In this document: positions 5,598 to 60,863 of the stretch, one piece after another | How positions within the stretch are numbered: the first letter of the stretch is position 1 | How the letters are laid out: each line of letters opens with the position of its first letter | Assembly: GCF_030717995.2 (NCBI RefSeq) | Contig: NZ_CP157743.1 | Coordinates: forward strand, 4,366,501-4,430,500 | Length of the DNA: 64,000 nt | Direction of reading: 5' to 3' | From: Methylomarinum sp. Ch1-1 | GTDB lineage: Bacteria > Pseudomonadota > Gammaproteobacteria > Methylococcales > Methylomonadaceae | Made by a program: the position numbers and the translations under genes | The notes under the pieces: generated by a model | Databases searched by the model: none | What the model was told of the DNA's origin: nothing | Seen by the model: only the letters and a program-made list of their open reading frames with translations

Positions 5598-5666
5598 CTA
5601 ACTATTCAGTATCTTTCAGGGTTTAGGCAGTAGTTCATTGATAAAACTACGCTGAATAATTATTAC
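5598..5666. repeat. Short miniature element with GTAACTATTCAG-type ends
   Basis: About 69 bp beginning TAACTATTCAGTATCTTTC and ending in the inverted CTGAATAATTATTAC. The inner stretch (TTTAGGCAGTAG...TTGAT) matches the ends of the larger elements at 26046-26202 and 42990-43367. It lies roughly 60 bp upstream of the sigma-54 promoter of fliL, where enhancer sites would be expected. The rest of the 5495-6006 gap holds only that promoter and the sqr-operon terminator; nothing else was recognised in it. Confidence 0.7.
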
Positions 5667-10381: not shown

Positions 10382-10413
10382 GTTACTATTCAGTATCTTT
10401 CGGGTTTTAGGCA
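10382..10413. repeat. One-ended fragment of GTAACTATTCAG-type element
   Basis: GTTACTATTCAG followed by TATCTTTCGGGTTTTAGGC, the same end as the copies at 26202 and 43367 read in the opposite direction. It directly replaces the last ~10 codons of the SLC13-type transporter gene, so it marks the 3' break of that pseudogene. Confidence 0.75.
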
Positions 10414-11156
10414 ACATCAACACGCTGACGGTTACAACCAGAATTTCCATTGGCAACCCCAGACGTCAATAGTCGCCAAAACGAAAGCCGCCAGGCCCGA
10501 GAATCAACAGGTTGTTCTGATGGCCTATCGGAGTCAGAAACGCGCATGATGCACCTATCGCAACCGCCATCAAAAACGGATCGGCACTGGTTTCGAGATT
10601 TGCGGCGGTGCTCAGCGCTATCGGACTCATCACCGCCGCGGTAGCGGCATTGTTCATGAAGTCGGACAAGGTCATCGTGACTATTAAGATCAGCGCCAAC
10701 ACCATCAGCGGGCTTTCTTGACCGATGCTGCTCAACAACCATTGGGAGCCCCGATCGGCCGCGCCGGTCGTCGTCATGGCGCCGGCCACCGGAATCAATG
10801 AAGCCAACAACAAAATCACCGGCCCATCGATAGCATCATAAATATTCCGCGCCGGCACTATTCTCAGCACGGTAAACAGCAGAGCGCCGGCGGCAAAGGA
10901 GATTGCCGCGGATAACAACCCCAGGGCGGCGCCTCCAATCGCCATGGTCATCACTATCGTGGCAATGGCCAATTTACGTTTATCCCGGATATGGATGGCG
11001 CGTTTGGCCAGAGGCACACAGCCGAATTCGTCGGAGAAACCGGACAAAGCTTCCAGCGGACCTTGCAGTAATAGAACATCGCCCGCCATGATTTTAGTGA
11101 ACCGCCGCCGCTTGATTGAACTCCGCCCCTGCCGAGAAATAGCCAGCAGATTGAGA

Positions 11157-12828
11157 GTAATTATTCAGACACCCTAACAATTGGCAAGGCCGGTACCGGC
11201 AAGCCTGACCGCTGACTTGCGATCACTTGTGCCAAATAAATCCACGGTGACTGATTTCTTTTGCGGCAGGTTTCAATGACGCTGATTAAAATAGCGAACA
11301 CACGCGTCCCATTTTCCGAGCGCGTGCCATAGCAAATGCCGCGTAAAATAACCCAGTGGCGCAACGCTCGCTCCGCTTCATTATTCGTTAAGGGCTGATG
11401 CGGTTGATCCAGAACTTGGAAAATAGCTGTCCAGTCATTTAGCATTTCCGTGGCTAATGCTGCTGTTTTCTTATGTTCATGGGTTTTCATTTGTATACAC
11501 ATCTGCTGATAGAGCAGTAATTGCAGGCGATAAGTTTCAGAAAGTGGCGTATCAGGTGGTGTTATTCGCGCTTTGCGTACCGCACCTATCAACACAGCCA
11601 GTAAATCGTGCGTTTGTTGACCAAAAAGCTGGGCGTCTCTGTTTAAGCTTTCATTGAGCCCTTTCGCTTTACGCAGAAGATGAGCCCAGCAACGTAACCG
11701 ACTCAGATATTTGCGATAAACCGTGTAGCCATCGCTCATTAACCAACCATTAAAGTCGTCGCCTAAAAGATTTTCCAATAATTCAGCGCTACGCGTAGCA
11801 ATCCAATAGGCTGTGACGCGATTCGTACTGAACACCCATAACCAAAGAAAAGTCGTGTGCTCCATCCAGGAGGTTTCGTCTACATGCAGCAATTCGCTGT
11901 TAATGATTTCTTGTGCAAACTCATCTTCAAGCGGCATAGCCGCTGCGCCACTTTCATGCAGGGTATTATTGATGGTGCCAACACTTAATTTAATACCTAA
12001 CCAGTCATATAAAATTCCTGAATACGCTCACGCGATAGGCGCATACGGTAGGCAAGACAAACAATCATTGCTGCCAGTCCAGGCCCCACTAAACGCCATT
12101 CAGTTCGGCTAATACCCGGCAATTGAGCATGACTGCTACGACTGACTTCTTTGCGCGTGATATGTCCATTGGCGCACACTACTTCATAGAGAGTGTGCTT
12201 GGTATGGGTGACTAGAATGCCTGGATGCTCAACATCGCCCCATTCGACATTGATTGTTTCATACGCGGCATAGGCGATAGCATGACGCGGCTCTAATGTT
12301 TGATGGCAGCAGGCACATATTTCAGGGTAATGATCTTGATAGTGGGTAATGGCTAGCTTTTGTGTCCGGCCAAAGCCTTGTGCGCCTGGTTGTTTGCCGG
12401 GTTTGCGGGGTTCTTGATGTTCATTGTTAGGATCAGCGGACTGTTGCTGATCTTTTTTAGAAGGCGACGGGGGGGTGACGGTGTCTTCCGTTTCAGCAGA
12501 CTTATCGATCTCCGTTTGTTCTTGATCGTTTGTATTATCTGTAGCTGCTTTATCCCAAGGCGCTTCGCTGCTAGGTGGACGAGAGCTGTTGCGCGAATTT
12601 TGGCTTAAGCGCTCACGCGCTTCTTTTAGGTCGTTAAGTAACTTAATCGATAGGTAACGTAATTCCTCTTCCGGTAAATTGAGAAGCTCGTCTTCATCGA
12701 TTTGGCTTAGGTCCTGGTTACTGAGTTGCATGGGATAAATACTAAGGCTTCTTAATGGATTTGTACAATGTTCTTGTGTCGGTTTGTCAATTATTTTGTA
12801 TTTTCAGCTAGGGTGTGTGAATACTTAC
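11157..12828 (-). mobile_element. IS66-family insertion sequence (single-transposase, ISBst12-like)
   Basis: 1672 bp with 22-bp imperfect terminal repeats: left GTAATTATTCAGACACCC..., right (inverted) GTAAGTATTCACACACCC..., 19 of 22 matching. Flanked by an exact 8-bp target duplication, gattgaga, at 11149-11156 and 12829-12836. GTAA ends and 8-bp duplications are IS66 hallmarks (known). Only a transposase gene is present, with no tnpA/tnpB accessory genes, as in the short ISBst12-type subgroup. Inserted in the SLC13-type gene; excising it with one copy of the duplication rejoins the reading frame (RYGLN-LLAISRQG). Confidence 0.93.
11161..12731 (-). pseudogene. IS66-family transposase, frameshifted
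   Basis: Two frames make up one ~523-residue IS66 transposase. The N-terminal part (11997-12731) has an acidic leucine-rich start, SRNSSRPPSSEAPWDK, a charged linker and a zinc-finger-like CACCHQTL. The C-terminal part (from about 12013 to 11161) has the DDE core: VDETSW, MSDGYTVY and NNEAERALRHWV. They are separated by loss of one T in the A4/T4 run at 12011-12014; adding it restores QEFLYDWLGIKLSVGTINN. A sequencing error or programmed shift is possible, but inactivation is simplest. The stop codon lies inside the left terminal repeat. Confidence 0.9.
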
Positions 12829-13339
12829 GATTGAGACCATAACGGCTGCTTAATCGAATATTATTGGCGGAACGACCAATCAGGCTGGAACCCGGCCTGA
12901 CGACCGCTTCCAGCAAGGCTGTTTCTTCGCTCTCCCCTTCGCCCTTATCGTCGTCGTTTTTTTCATTGCCAGCCGTTTTCCGTGGGATGGAGTCCGTCCC
13001 GGTATCCGCTACGGTGTCTTTCTGAATTTCAAGACCAAGACTGGAAAGCGCCGTCGCCAATGACTGCGACTCGGCTTCGATCACCAGAATGTCGCCGGCG
13101 CGGAGCCGCCGCCCCGGATTTGGAGCGATCACCCGGAACTTGTTGCGCACCATGCCGACAACCTGGGCGTCGGCATCATCGAGAGTTTGCTCAATCTCTC
13201 TCAGCATTCGGCCGTCCGCCTTGCCGTTTTCGCTGACATAGGCTTCAGTCAGATAAGTCCCCGTATCGAATGTAAGCGATCCTTTTTGCGCTCTAAGGAA
13301 CGAGTATGAAATAACTTTCCCAAATGTCGGAAGAGGAAT

Positions 13340-13696
13340 CGGTGGCTCGATTGACAGGTGTCGGCGGCATGGCAGATTTTTTCCTCCTGCAAAATCTGCA
13401 TTTCCACCATCCCTGGCGGGCAGATAGCCGCCGTCAAGCCTACGCCGCACAAGGCAGCAATTCAGTTTGAGTATTTTTGCGGTGTTTAGGGCATGGAGTG
13501 TGTCTGTCGAGGAGCGCCGTTCACCCAGCACCTAAATTATGCTGGAATGTAAAATATAGTCCAGTAGCCATGGAATTTAGGTGCTGGGTGAATATATCCC
13601 TATAGGCTTGGATGCGACATCCCTGTCGCATACACTTCTTCCACAAGCAATTGATAGTAAAAGAAATATTATCTCAGTATCAAGCTGAATAGTTAC
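13340..13696. repeat. Composite miniature-element cluster (chimeric copy)
   Basis: Four blocks in a row. About 13345-13454 contains TGCAAAATCTGCATTTCCA and TACGCCGCAC, matching 43100-43185. From 13455 a CAGCAATTC end leads into the right half of the 9-bp-TSD family (GTGTTTAGGGCATGGAGTGT). 13520-13592 is the palindromic module with TTCACCCAGCACCTAAAT arms. 13593-13696 is the half of the 43380-43613 element that ends CAAGCTGAATAGTTAC. The mix of two families on either side of a shared module suggests recombination. The remaining 13697-13840 shows nothing further. Confidence 0.75.
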
Positions 13697-18952: not shown

Positions 18953-19167
18953 CAGCAATTCCCGATTTTGATAATAAAGAGGGATTGAGGTGTGTTTGGC
19001 GAGGATGTCGGCGGCAGGGAGTCCGACGTCAAGCCCCAAGGATTCACCCAGCACCTAAATTCCATGCCTTTTGGGCTACATTTACATTCCAGAATAATTT
19101 AGGTGCTGGGTGAACGCCGTTCCACGACAGACACTCCCCTCTAAAACGCTCAAACGGGGAATTGCTG
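18953..19167. repeat. Miniature element (CAGCAATTCCC ends) with 9-bp target duplication
   Basis: 215 bp from CAGCAATTCCC to GGGGAATTGCTG. Flanked by exact direct repeats tattcatcc at 18944-18952 and 19168-19176. It contains GAGGTGTGTTTGGCGAGG, GTCGGCGGCAGGGA and, nested at 19043-19114, the palindromic TTCACCCAGCACCTAAAT module. It lies inside the leuCDB-asd operon, in the gap between leuD and leuB; nothing else is visible in that 338-bp gap. Confidence 0.88.
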
Positions 19168-25928: not shown

Positions 25929-26202
25929 CAGCATTTCCCTTTGGTGTTCAAAAAGGGCATGGGGTGTGTTTGGCGAGGATGTCGGCAGATAGGATGCGGT
26001 CGTCAAGCTCCAGCACCTAAATTCCATGGCTACTGGACTATATTTGTAATTATTCAGCGTATTTTTATCAGAGGGAGTAGGCTATTGATTTATCGGGCTG
26101 TCTGCAACAGGACGTTGCAGTCAGAGCTTACATGGAAGTATTCACGCGTCCCGAGAAATCAATAACCTACTGCCTAAAACCCGAAAGATACTGAATAGTT
26201 AC
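25929..26202. repeat. Nested miniature elements
   Basis: The left half of a CAGCATTTCCC-type element (25929-26045; GTGTGTTTGGCGAGGATGTC) runs into half of the palindromic module (CCAGCACCTAAAT) and is then cut by a GTAATTATTCAG...CTGAATAGTTAC element at 26046-26202. The missing right halves are not found beyond, and the flanks of the inner element do not match, so a deletion or recombination followed insertion. 26203-26295 shows nothing. Confidence 0.78.
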
Positions 26203-26869: not shown

Positions 26870-27041
26870 CAGCAATTCCCACTTTGGCGTTCAAAAAGGG
26901 CATGGGGTGTGTTTGGCGAGGATGTCGGCAGCAAGGATGCTGCCGTCAAGCCCCCAGGGATGGGTTTACAGCGCTCCTCGACAGACACACCCCATGCCCT
27001 AAACACCGCAAAAATATTCAAACTGATGATGGGAATTGCTG
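26870..27041. repeat. Miniature element (CAGCAATTCCC ends), 9-bp duplication, no inner module
   Basis: 172 bp from CAGCAATTCCC to GGGAATTGCTG, flanked by exact acttttatg repeats at 26861-26869 and 27042-27050. This copy lacks the palindromic module (the site reads GGGTTTACAGCGCTCCTCG uninterrupted), so it serves as the empty-site form of the family. It occupies most of the space between yrdA-like and lemA starts. Confidence 0.9.
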
Positions 27042-31745: not shown

Positions 31746-31972
31746 CAGCGTTTGAATAACTAAAAGGGCTTGGGGTGTGTTTGGCGATGATGTCGGCGGC
31801 AGGGAGTCCGCCGTCAAGCCCCCAAGGATAGGTTTACCCAGCACCTAAATTTCCATGGCTACTGGACTATATTTTACATTCCAGCATAATTTAGGTGCTG
31901 GGTGAACGGCGTTCCTCGACAGACACACCCCAGGCCCTAAACACCGCTAAAACGCTCAAATGGGAATTACTG
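31746..31972. repeat. CAGCAATTCCC-family element containing the palindromic module
   Basis: Contains GGGGTGTGTTTGGCGATG, GTCGGCGGCAGGGAGTCC, a full TTTACCCAGCACCTAAAT...ATTTAGGTGCTGGGTGAA module (31836-31906), CCTCGACAGACACACCCCAG and the terminal GGGAATTACTG. The left end is eroded (CAG-CGTTTGAATAAC, missing CAATTCCC) and no target duplication is visible. It lies between the group II intron and the peroxidase gene. The rest of the 31106-32070 gap is the 5' part of the intron. Confidence 0.82.
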
Positions 31973-35377: not shown

Positions 35378-35530
35378 GTCACTATTCAGCTTGATACTGA
35401 ATAGTTACAATCTGGATAACGAAGAGGGCCTGGGGTATATAGCGAGGATGTCGGCGGCAGCCCCCACCCCCTAAATTCCATGACTTTTGGGCTACTATTT
35501 CATTCCAGGATAATTTAGATGTTGGGTGAA
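35378..35530. repeat. Solo end-to-end terminal repeats plus eroded miniature element
   Basis: 35378-35408 is just two GTAACTATTCAG-type ends back to back (CACTATTCAGCTTGATACTG followed by AATAGTTAC), as if an element had lost its whole interior. Directly after it is a decayed CAGCAATTCCC-family copy (GATAACGAAGAGGGCCTGGG, GCGAGGATGTCGGCGGCAGC) ending in a mutated module (AATTTAGATGTTGGGTGAA). The 34992-35571 gap otherwise holds only the 46-residue gene. Confidence 0.7.
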
Positions 35531-42989: not shown

Positions 42990-43367
42990 GTAATTATTCA
43001 GCGTATTTTTATCAGAGGTGGGTAGGCTATTGATTTATCGGGCTGTCTGCAACAGGCAGATTTTTGCTCTGACCGCCAAGGAAGGCGGAAATGTAGAAAC
43101 TGCAGGAGCAATTTTCTGCCTGCAAAATCTGCATTTCCATCGTCCCTGACGGTCAGACGTTGCAGTCAGAGCTTACGCCGCACAGGGAAGTGCAAGTGCC
43201 GCGTGAGGCAGGATGCCGTTAGCTGCCATGGAAGTATTCACCCAGCACCTAAATTAACGAAGATTATTAATCATAACCAATAACCTAGGGTATTTAGGTG
43301 CTGGGTGAACGCATCCCGAGAAATCAATGACCTACTGCCTAAAACCCGAAAGATACTGAATAGTTAC
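42990..43367. repeat. 378-bp composite element with GTAATTATTCAG / CTGAATAGTTAC ends
   Basis: Begins GTAATTATTCAGCGTATTTT, contains TAGGCTATTGATTTATCGGG, CTGCAAAATCTGCATTTCC, CAGACGTTGCAGTCAGAGCT and the palindromic module (TTCACCCAGCACCTAAAT at about 43231, centre unlike other copies), and ends CCGAAAGATACTGAATAGTTAC-like. A shorter version lacking most of the middle is at 26046-26202. No matching target duplication is seen. Confidence 0.8.
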
Positions 43368-43379
43368 CCTAATTATTTA

Positions 43380-43613
43380 GTAACTATTCAGCTTGATACT
43401 GAGAAAATTTTTCTTTTACTATCAATTGCTTGTGGAAGAAGTGTATGCGGCAGGGATGTCGCATCCAAGCCTATAGGGACATATTCACCCAGCACCTAAA
43501 TTCCATAGGCTAATGGCTGCGATAAATCATCTTCGTTTATTTAGGTGCTGGGTAAACGGCGTCTTCTGGAGCAAGTAACTGATAGTGAAAGTATTTTTAT
43601 ACTGAATAGTTAC
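43380..43613. repeat. Complete 234-bp IS66-type miniature element with 8-bp duplication
   Basis: Ends GTAACTATTCAGCTTGATAC and (inverted) GTAACTATTCAGTATAAAAA. Flanked by the exact 8-bp repeat attattta (43372-43379 and 43614-43621). Interior non-coding, with a CACCTAAAT...ATTTAGGTG module at about 43486-43556. The terminal 12 bases differ by one from the left end of the IS66-family element at 11157, and the duplication length is the same, so transposition by an IS66-type enzyme is strongly suggested. Confidence 0.9.
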
Positions 43614-43643
43614 ATTATTTATTCATTTTTGCCGAAAAAAAAT

Positions 43644-48314: not shown

Positions 48315-48470
48315 AAGCAATTCCCAATTTAGATAACAAAGAGGATCTGGGATGTGTTTGACGAGGATGTCGGCGGTAGGGATACCGCCGCCAAGCCCCC
48401 AAGAATGGGTTCACCCAGACCCTAAACATCGCTAAAACGCTCGAAATACTCGGCCTGAGAATTGCGAAAA
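48315..48470. repeat. Decayed CAGCAATTCCC-family element
   Basis: AAGCAATTCCCAATTTAGAT at the left, GATGTGTTTGACGAGGATGT and GTCGGCGGTAGGGATACCGC inside, and a degenerate GAGAATTGC at the right. No palindromic module (reads GGGTTCACCCAGACCC) and no clean duplication. It lies between divergent trmJ and suhB, in the promoter area. Confidence 0.7.
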
Positions 48471-60433: not shown

Positions 60434-60496
60434 TGTAATCCTCAATTGTTATCGTTATATAAAATTTAAATCGTTATTCTGCGTTATTTGCAGAAA

Positions 60497-60760
60497 AGGG
60501 AGTAGGTTATTGATTTATCGAGCCGTCCGCAACAACCAAATCTTTGCTCCTGCAAAATTGACATGTCCACTCTCCCTGGCGGTCTACCTCATCGGTTCCC
60601 GACCGGTGCGGCATTTCCACCCTCCCTGGCGGTCTACCTCACCGGCTCCCGACCGGTGTGGCATTTCCACCCTCCCTGGCGGTCTACCTCACCGGTTCCC
60701 GACCGGTGTGGCATTTCCACCCTCCCTGGCGGTCAGACGTTGCTGATAGCGCTTAGTGGG
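60497..60760. repeat. Repeat remnant plus three 50-bp tandem repeats
   Basis: 60500-60535 resembles TAGGTTATTGATTTATCGAG-type sequence of the miniature elements. From 60573 a 50-bp unit (TCCCTGGCGGTCTACCTCAT...) is repeated at 60573, 60623 and 60673 with few changes, plus a truncated fourth start at 60723. Each unit contains an ACCGGTTCCCGACCGGT-like palindrome. TCCCTGGCGG also occurs in the elements at 13390 and (as TCCCTGACGG) 43140. Nothing coding is apparent in 60434-60863. Confidence 0.85.
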
Positions 60761-60863
60761 ATATCTACCCCCATCCCTGGAAATCAATGACCTGCTGAAA
60801 AAAACTGCAGAATGCCAAGCTGGATACAATCTCGCTCGGCATTCAAGCAGAAAAATCTCGTTA

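Follow-up and report, generated by a model that had tools for sequence, protein, structure and literature searches.

The window, by which we mean the whole stretch of 64,000 nucleotides of Methylomarinum sp. Ch1-1 DNA analysed here, contains a MITE of 234 bp that begins with GTAACTATTCAG, terminates with CTGAATAGTTAC and is bracketed by an exact 8-bp duplication of ATTATTTA (Table 1), just as a sequence-only reading of the locus had claimed in describing a complete miniature element. Its two inverted ends are identical at 12 of 12 positions, its length leaves no room for a transposase gene, and a single long hairpin is predicted when it is folded as single-stranded DNA (-43.1 kcal/mol, z = -7.4). 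The same reading had called the ends IS66-type, which is borne out by their GTAA start and by the strict 8-bp duplications. Both of these features are common to the MITEs described here and to the single-ORF members of the IS66 family, which we take to be ISBst12-like; the MITEs differ from the family in having no transposase, and canonical IS66 ends are instead of the GTAAG type.

Table 1. Features in the window; position 1 is its first nucleotide
Feature	Position	Strand	Remarks
Given MITE, family B	43380..43613	+	234 bp; GTAACTATTCAG at both ends
Target duplication, left	43372..43379	.	ATTATTTA, 8 bp
Target duplication, right	43614..43621	.	ATTATTTA, 8 bp
Hairpin repeat nested in given MITE	43488..43556	+	69 bp, CCCAGCACC...; missing in 165-bp family B copies
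Family A MITE	42990..43367	+	378 bp; internal modules and nested hairpin; duplication absent (4/8)
Family A core MITE	26046..26202	+	157 bp; duplication absent at site (2/8)
Micro element	35378..35408	+	31 bp, barely more than two ends; flanks AATTTGGA / AATCTGGA, 7/8
Family B MITE, left part	13593..13696	-	hairpin repeat and other repeats replace right part
Family A remnant	5598..5663	+	short, decayed; both ends present (1 mismatch each)
Family A right end	10382..10411	+	no partner; 1 mismatch
ISa, IS66-family insertion sequence	11157..12828	-	1672 bp; ends GTAATTATTCAGACACCCTA / GTAAGTATTCACACACCCTA; GATTGAGA duplication on both sides

The terminal sequence GTAAYTATTCAG, with at most one mismatch, is found at 13 sites in the window, versus a mean of 0.29 and a maximum of 4 in 100 shuffles. 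The copy starting at 26046 had been said to agree in all twelve terminal bases, and it does start with GTAATTATTCAG, a 12/12 end match, but no duplication flanks it there (2/8). Other repeats lie among these elements. A 69-bp hairpin repeat (CCCAGCACCTAAATT...AATTTAGGTGCTGGG) occurs at 43488-43556, 43241-43309 and 13524-13592 of the window as well as elsewhere, is nested within MITEs of both families described below, is preceded by TTCA or TTTA, and shows no duplication. Its arm has 162 exact matches in the genome, which also contains 15 matches to PF01797, and on these grounds the hairpin is possibly a REP-like element. REP palindromes and REPINs are moved by Y1 tyrosine transposases, and the nested hairpin may be one of them, given its many copies, the lack of any visible duplication and the presence of PF01797; the MITEs differ from such elements in their 8-bp duplications and IS66-type ends. 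A mosaic repeat family (GGTGTGTTTGGCGAGGATGTCGGCGGCAG...) is present at 18966-19114, 26883-27022, 31751-31960 and 48328-48442, adjoined by the hairpin in several places, and a diverged relative of family A, made of tandem 50-bp modules without canonical ends, lies at 60474-60805.

Across the 4.77-Mb genome there are 302 exact GTAAYTATTCAG ends (163 forward and 139 reverse) and no occurrence of the reversed pattern. Flanks were read in a non-random sample of 595.6 kb (12.5% of the genome), composed of 100 listed places, the IS66 loci, further listed ends and the window, which covers 119 of the 163 forward and 83 of the 139 reverse exact ends. A partner lies within 800 bp of 93 of the 119 sampled forward ends, and the tabulation of duplications that the sequence-only reading had proposed gives, for these pairs, 64 at 8/8, 8 at 7/8, 6 at 6/8 and 15 at less, the partner with the best duplication being chosen where several were possible; shuffled right flanks yield a mean of 0.74 perfect pairs and a maximum of 6. 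The ninth base agrees in just 4 of the 64 perfect cases, which sets the length of the duplication at 8 bp, and the duplicated targets have a G+C content of 30%. The 26 forward ends with no partner within 800 bp comprise 7 left ends of ISa, one MITE split by the IS66-type element ISX, and 18 ends for which no partner was found.

The interiors of the two MITE families, A and B, are unrelated. Family A has the ends GTAATTATTCAGCGTA... and GTAACTATTCAGTATCTTTC... and a core of 157/158 bp, with 31 copies in the 156-158-bp class that carry a duplication of at least 6/8, and its longer copies, in which about 50-bp tandem modules vary in number and hairpins are nested, reach 715 bp. Family B, to which the given element belongs, has the ends GTAACTATTCAGCTTG... 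and GTAACTATTCAGTATAAAAA... and measures 165 bp, or 234 bp where the 69-bp hairpin is present. A hybrid of 429 bp at 1759479 has one family B end and one family A end, and since its duplication is perfect (8/8) it suggests that a single enzyme handles both families. There are also six micro copies of 31-53 bp with little beyond two ends. Opinion can be divided evenly on whether these are larger copies internally deleted after insertion rather than mobile units, a side question compatible with every driver considered below: their sequences are family B ends joined together and a duplication would survive deletion too, although five of the six cluster at 49-53 bp and, among the six, two have 8/8 duplications and one 7/8 (the others being one at 6/8 and two with none).

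An IS66-family element with an 8-bp duplication had been claimed at 11157, and ISa indeed spans 11157-12828 with an 8/8 duplication of GATTGAGA. Its left end is GTAATTATTCAG and its right end GTAAGTATTCAC. The agreement of terminal bases had been given beforehand as eleven of twelve; the left end is 12/12 identical to the family A left end, and the right end agrees with GTAACTATTCAG at only 10/12. After the outer 12 bp both ISa ends continue with ACACCCTA, which the MITEs do not have; among 151 genomes of the same bacterial family the ISa-type ends are GTAANTATTCA, then mostly (G)ACCCC-like bases. The transposase frame of the ISa copy in the window is split into two ORFs. The genome holds 12 full-length copies, 11 of them with 8/8 duplications, and three copies outside the window retain an open 547-aa frame. 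The copies are nearly identical (median divergence 0.06%, maximum 0.3%, 66 pairs), and ISa is a recent arrival or burst. Minus-strand ORFs at 10466-11089 and 12791-13531 flank the window copy and may be one gene split by the insertion.

The MITEs may share ends with an autonomous element of this genome: they have 12 bp in common with one end of ISa, and the better match, ISb (described below), was not found there. In one alternative reading the resident ISa would drive families A and B, its outer 12 bp being sufficient and its intact copies acting. The identity of its left end with the family A left end (12/12) and its 12 full-length copies with the duplications and open frames just described are in keeping with this, as is base 8, which is T in those family A homologues that were read from genomes G063, G015 and G041 and in the ISa-type elements read from G063 and G015. 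Six family A cores share one sequence but occupy six sites, each with a different 8/8 duplication; they appear to have been moved fairly recently, and ISa could be the mover. Cross-mobilisation of the MITEs by ISa is possible; moreover, two of the three 93-bp elements read from G040 begin with GTAATTATTCAGACCC, like ISa-type ends. Nevertheless, at the ISa right end two of the 12 bases differ, bases 13-20 mismatch, and ISa's own two ends conserve ACACCCTA. ISa copies are also roughly 100-fold less diverged than the family A cores, whose median pairwise divergence is 5.7% (465 pairs), and the ends of family A homologues in G004, a genome of the same genus, match another subgroup, ISb, rather than ISa. 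As a driver of both families ISa is therefore considered unlikely, and the earlier view of it as the parent type is not upheld: its ends match for 12 bp on the left and 10/12 on the right and then diverge to ACACCCTA, its copies are near-identical where family A cores are diverged, and a match to both ends, extending inward in some copies, is seen in ISb, which the searches of this genome did not find.

ISb is our own label for a second single-ORF IS66 subgroup, the transposase of which has about 24% identity to that of ISa. ISa, ISb and the plasmid element ISc all match PF03050 and score above the NCBIfam IS66 cut-off of 180 bits, ISb with 284 and 300 bits. The ends of ISb are GTAAYTAYTCAG on both sides, mostly followed by C, as exemplified by the 1766-bp element of G058, in which both ends and an 8/8 duplication were read. 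At least 80 ISb loci occur in the named genomes scanned; both ends and the duplication are readable at 35 of the 80 listed loci, and all 35 duplications are 8/8. Among these 35 elements, GTAAYTATTCAG stands at both ends of 17 (8 of which come from a single Paraglaciecola genome) and GTAACTACTCAG at both ends of 12, the other 6 being mixed, and hence the two 12-bp ends of the given element correspond to a natural ISb end pair. A truncated ISb of G004 starts with GTAACTACTCAGCGTAAAT and is identical over 19 bp to one end of the family A homologues there. On a matrix of 144 MITE ends, in which family A predominates with 56 of 72 elements, the scores over 20 bp are 18.5 to 25.9 for six ISb ends, compared with 2.1 and -10.9 for ISa, -1.5 and -13.2 for ISX, -20.9 for one ISc end, and -36.6 and -27.9 for two canonical IS66 ends; over the first 12 bases alone the ISa left end, at 22.2, equals the ISb ends (15.0-22.8), and the difference sits in bases 13-20. 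Base 15 is T in 143 of the 144 MITE ends and was dropped as a marker of ISb because it varies among ISb copies and among the MITEs of relatives. ISb-type elements occur well outside the methanotrophs, in Marinobacter, Paraglaciecola, Desulfocapsa and Desulfatitalea records (loci L242-L321), and at one locus of G001 (L192, 1282-1310) a 29-bp sequence in which 5 bp separate two ISb-type ends adjoins an ISb end.

In the genome of the window, an ISb protein query returned ISc at 34% and ISa at 27% identity among the 10 of 24 candidates scored, no ISb was found among the PF03050 candidates (28/28 scored), and searching the 595.6 kb and the plasmid stretch again likewise gave distant matches only. 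With no ISb found, the genome offers no direct parent-derivative pair, and the MITEs look orphaned. The subgroup match and this failure to find ISb are direct observations, as are the ends, the duplications and the copy number; kinship to ISb is claimed for the ends of the MITEs, and their mobilisation by an IS66 transposase is putative.

The PF03050 search of the genome recovered ISa, ISX, ISc on contig C1 and a remnant at 4322390, the last of which has 26-30% identity to ISa and ISb alike over longer pieces. ISX encodes 543 aa, has the ends GTAACTTCTCAA and passes PF03050, with an NCBIfam IS66 score of 121 bits, under the cut-off of 180. A 1.87-kb segment with exact MITE ends and an IS66 transposase (L046) was considered as a parent and rejected, as it is a family A MITE into which ISX, a separate insertion sequence, has inserted with a duplication of its own, GGTTTTAG. 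ISc was rejected as well, its ends being of the GTAACTACTC(A/G)CCCC type and the one scored end a poor match. Canonical IS66 elements of the family genomes, from which both ends and an 8/8 duplication were obtained at 14 of 30 loci, have GTAAG-type ends, mostly GTAAGCG.

Other insertion sequence families can also make 8-bp duplications, and a non-IS66 transposase could in principle drive the MITEs. At least 20 such ends, in either base-8 form, are present in 40 of 151 genomes of the bacterial family, and 7 of these 40 have no PF03050 match, which speaks for such a driver. A PF03050 match is found in 33 of the 40 end-rich genomes versus 52 of the 111 others (Fisher p = 8e-5), an association taken as no more than supporting, because canonical IS66 elements also fall under PF03050 and repeats go missing from draft assemblies. 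The longer segments (0.8-6 kb) with such ends and a duplication of at least 7/8 in the 595.6 kb number 12, namely 11 copies of ISa and the family A MITE bearing ISX, and no better-matching non-IS66 family, which the sequence-only reading had named as grounds for abandoning the IS66 assignment, appears among them. IS66 elements in relatives also have the identical 12 bp, and a driver from outside the IS66 family is accordingly regarded as very improbable.

Homologues of family A are found in 20 of the 151 genomes, including that of the window, with up to five places scored per genome. Those of G004 have 79-80% identity over the full length, and those of G015, G041, G063, G080 and G094 have 81-89% within bases 1-119, over all or part of that range. 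In G004, the five copies read have C at base 8 of both ends, and three have 8/8 duplications. Among 39 stretches of other genomes, picked for paired ends or family A homology, 30 contain an element whose duplication is at least 7/8 (14/19 and 16/20). The elements of relatives, which come from G004, G011, G015, G019, G020, G040, G041, G045, G062, G063, G067, G084 and G125, are 73-188 bp long and often have unrelated interiors, the single exception in length being a 533-bp tandem array in G084 (L361, G084:C144:369-1101), with three MITE copies at a 195-bp period and one perfect 8-bp duplication outside. From the ISa-like starts in G040 it follows that the ISa and ISb subgroups may both have been sources of MITEs.

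It is tentatively proposed, with more doubt than confidence, that one IS66-type terminal signal repeatedly yields MITEs with unrelated interiors, and that across the bacterial family their ends follow the resident transposase. The two same-genus genomes would fit this proposal, as the family A interior is kept between them (79-80%) and base 8 of the ends is T in the genome of the window (302 T, 3 C) and C in G004 (118 C, 2 T), where the ends match the ISb remnant for 19 bp. The proposal is weakened by base 8 itself, for which no more than 7 of 10 genomes show agreement with their resident ISb (G001, G004, G006, G019, G067, G100 and G112, but not G010, G021 and G058), which is not significant; the comparison covers genomes with a readable ISb end and at least 20 ends, G024, G037 and G145 (10 ends or fewer) being left out, and the counts for G100 and G112 include the ends of ISb itself. 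If the proposal is true, MITEs track successive IS66 helpers through terminal changes.

Taken together, the element at 43380-43613 is probably a non-autonomous IS66-type MITE whose ends are best fitted by ISb-like elements, whose helper is missing from the genome, and which is thus orphaned together with the other MITEs. An IS66-family DDE transposase would act in trans, recognising some 12 bp at the termini (GTAAYTATTCAG), and would duplicate 8 bp of the target on inserting the MITE. The ends of families A and B are interchangeable in spite of their unrelated interiors. The driver would be a single-ORF ISb-like transposase, which we infer has since been lost from the genome, and the MITEs would be mostly old copies, decayed in part, among which at least one sub-burst is more recent. 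ISa, a recent arrival that has the outer 12 bp in common with them at one end, might cross-mobilise them or might not.

Some similarities exist with MITEPsy1 and MITEPsy2 of Pseudomonas syringae, which are likewise short, non-coding and multicopy and have inverted ends in common with an insertion sequence; they are linked to ISPsy2 (listed as IS5?) and ISPsy30 (Tn3), with a 4-nt or unknown duplication and six and two copies, respectively (PMC3189936). In the portions consulted of that paper and of PMC9769881, PMC3281130, PMC8741817, PMC9208149, PMC5665950 and PMC7031236, no description of an IS66-driven MITE was found, and a search for mention of IS66 in PMC10969869 and PMC3852290 gave no match; within the literature thus searched in part, no case of IS66 transposases driving MITEs was encountered. 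The IS66-type MITEs described here are numerous, have strict duplications and occur in many genomes of a single bacterial family, some copies being as short as 31-53 bp and the terminal signal varying. They make the minimal IS66 end directly testable, and likewise whether one IS66 subgroup can mobilise elements of another and what becomes of MITEs left without a helper.
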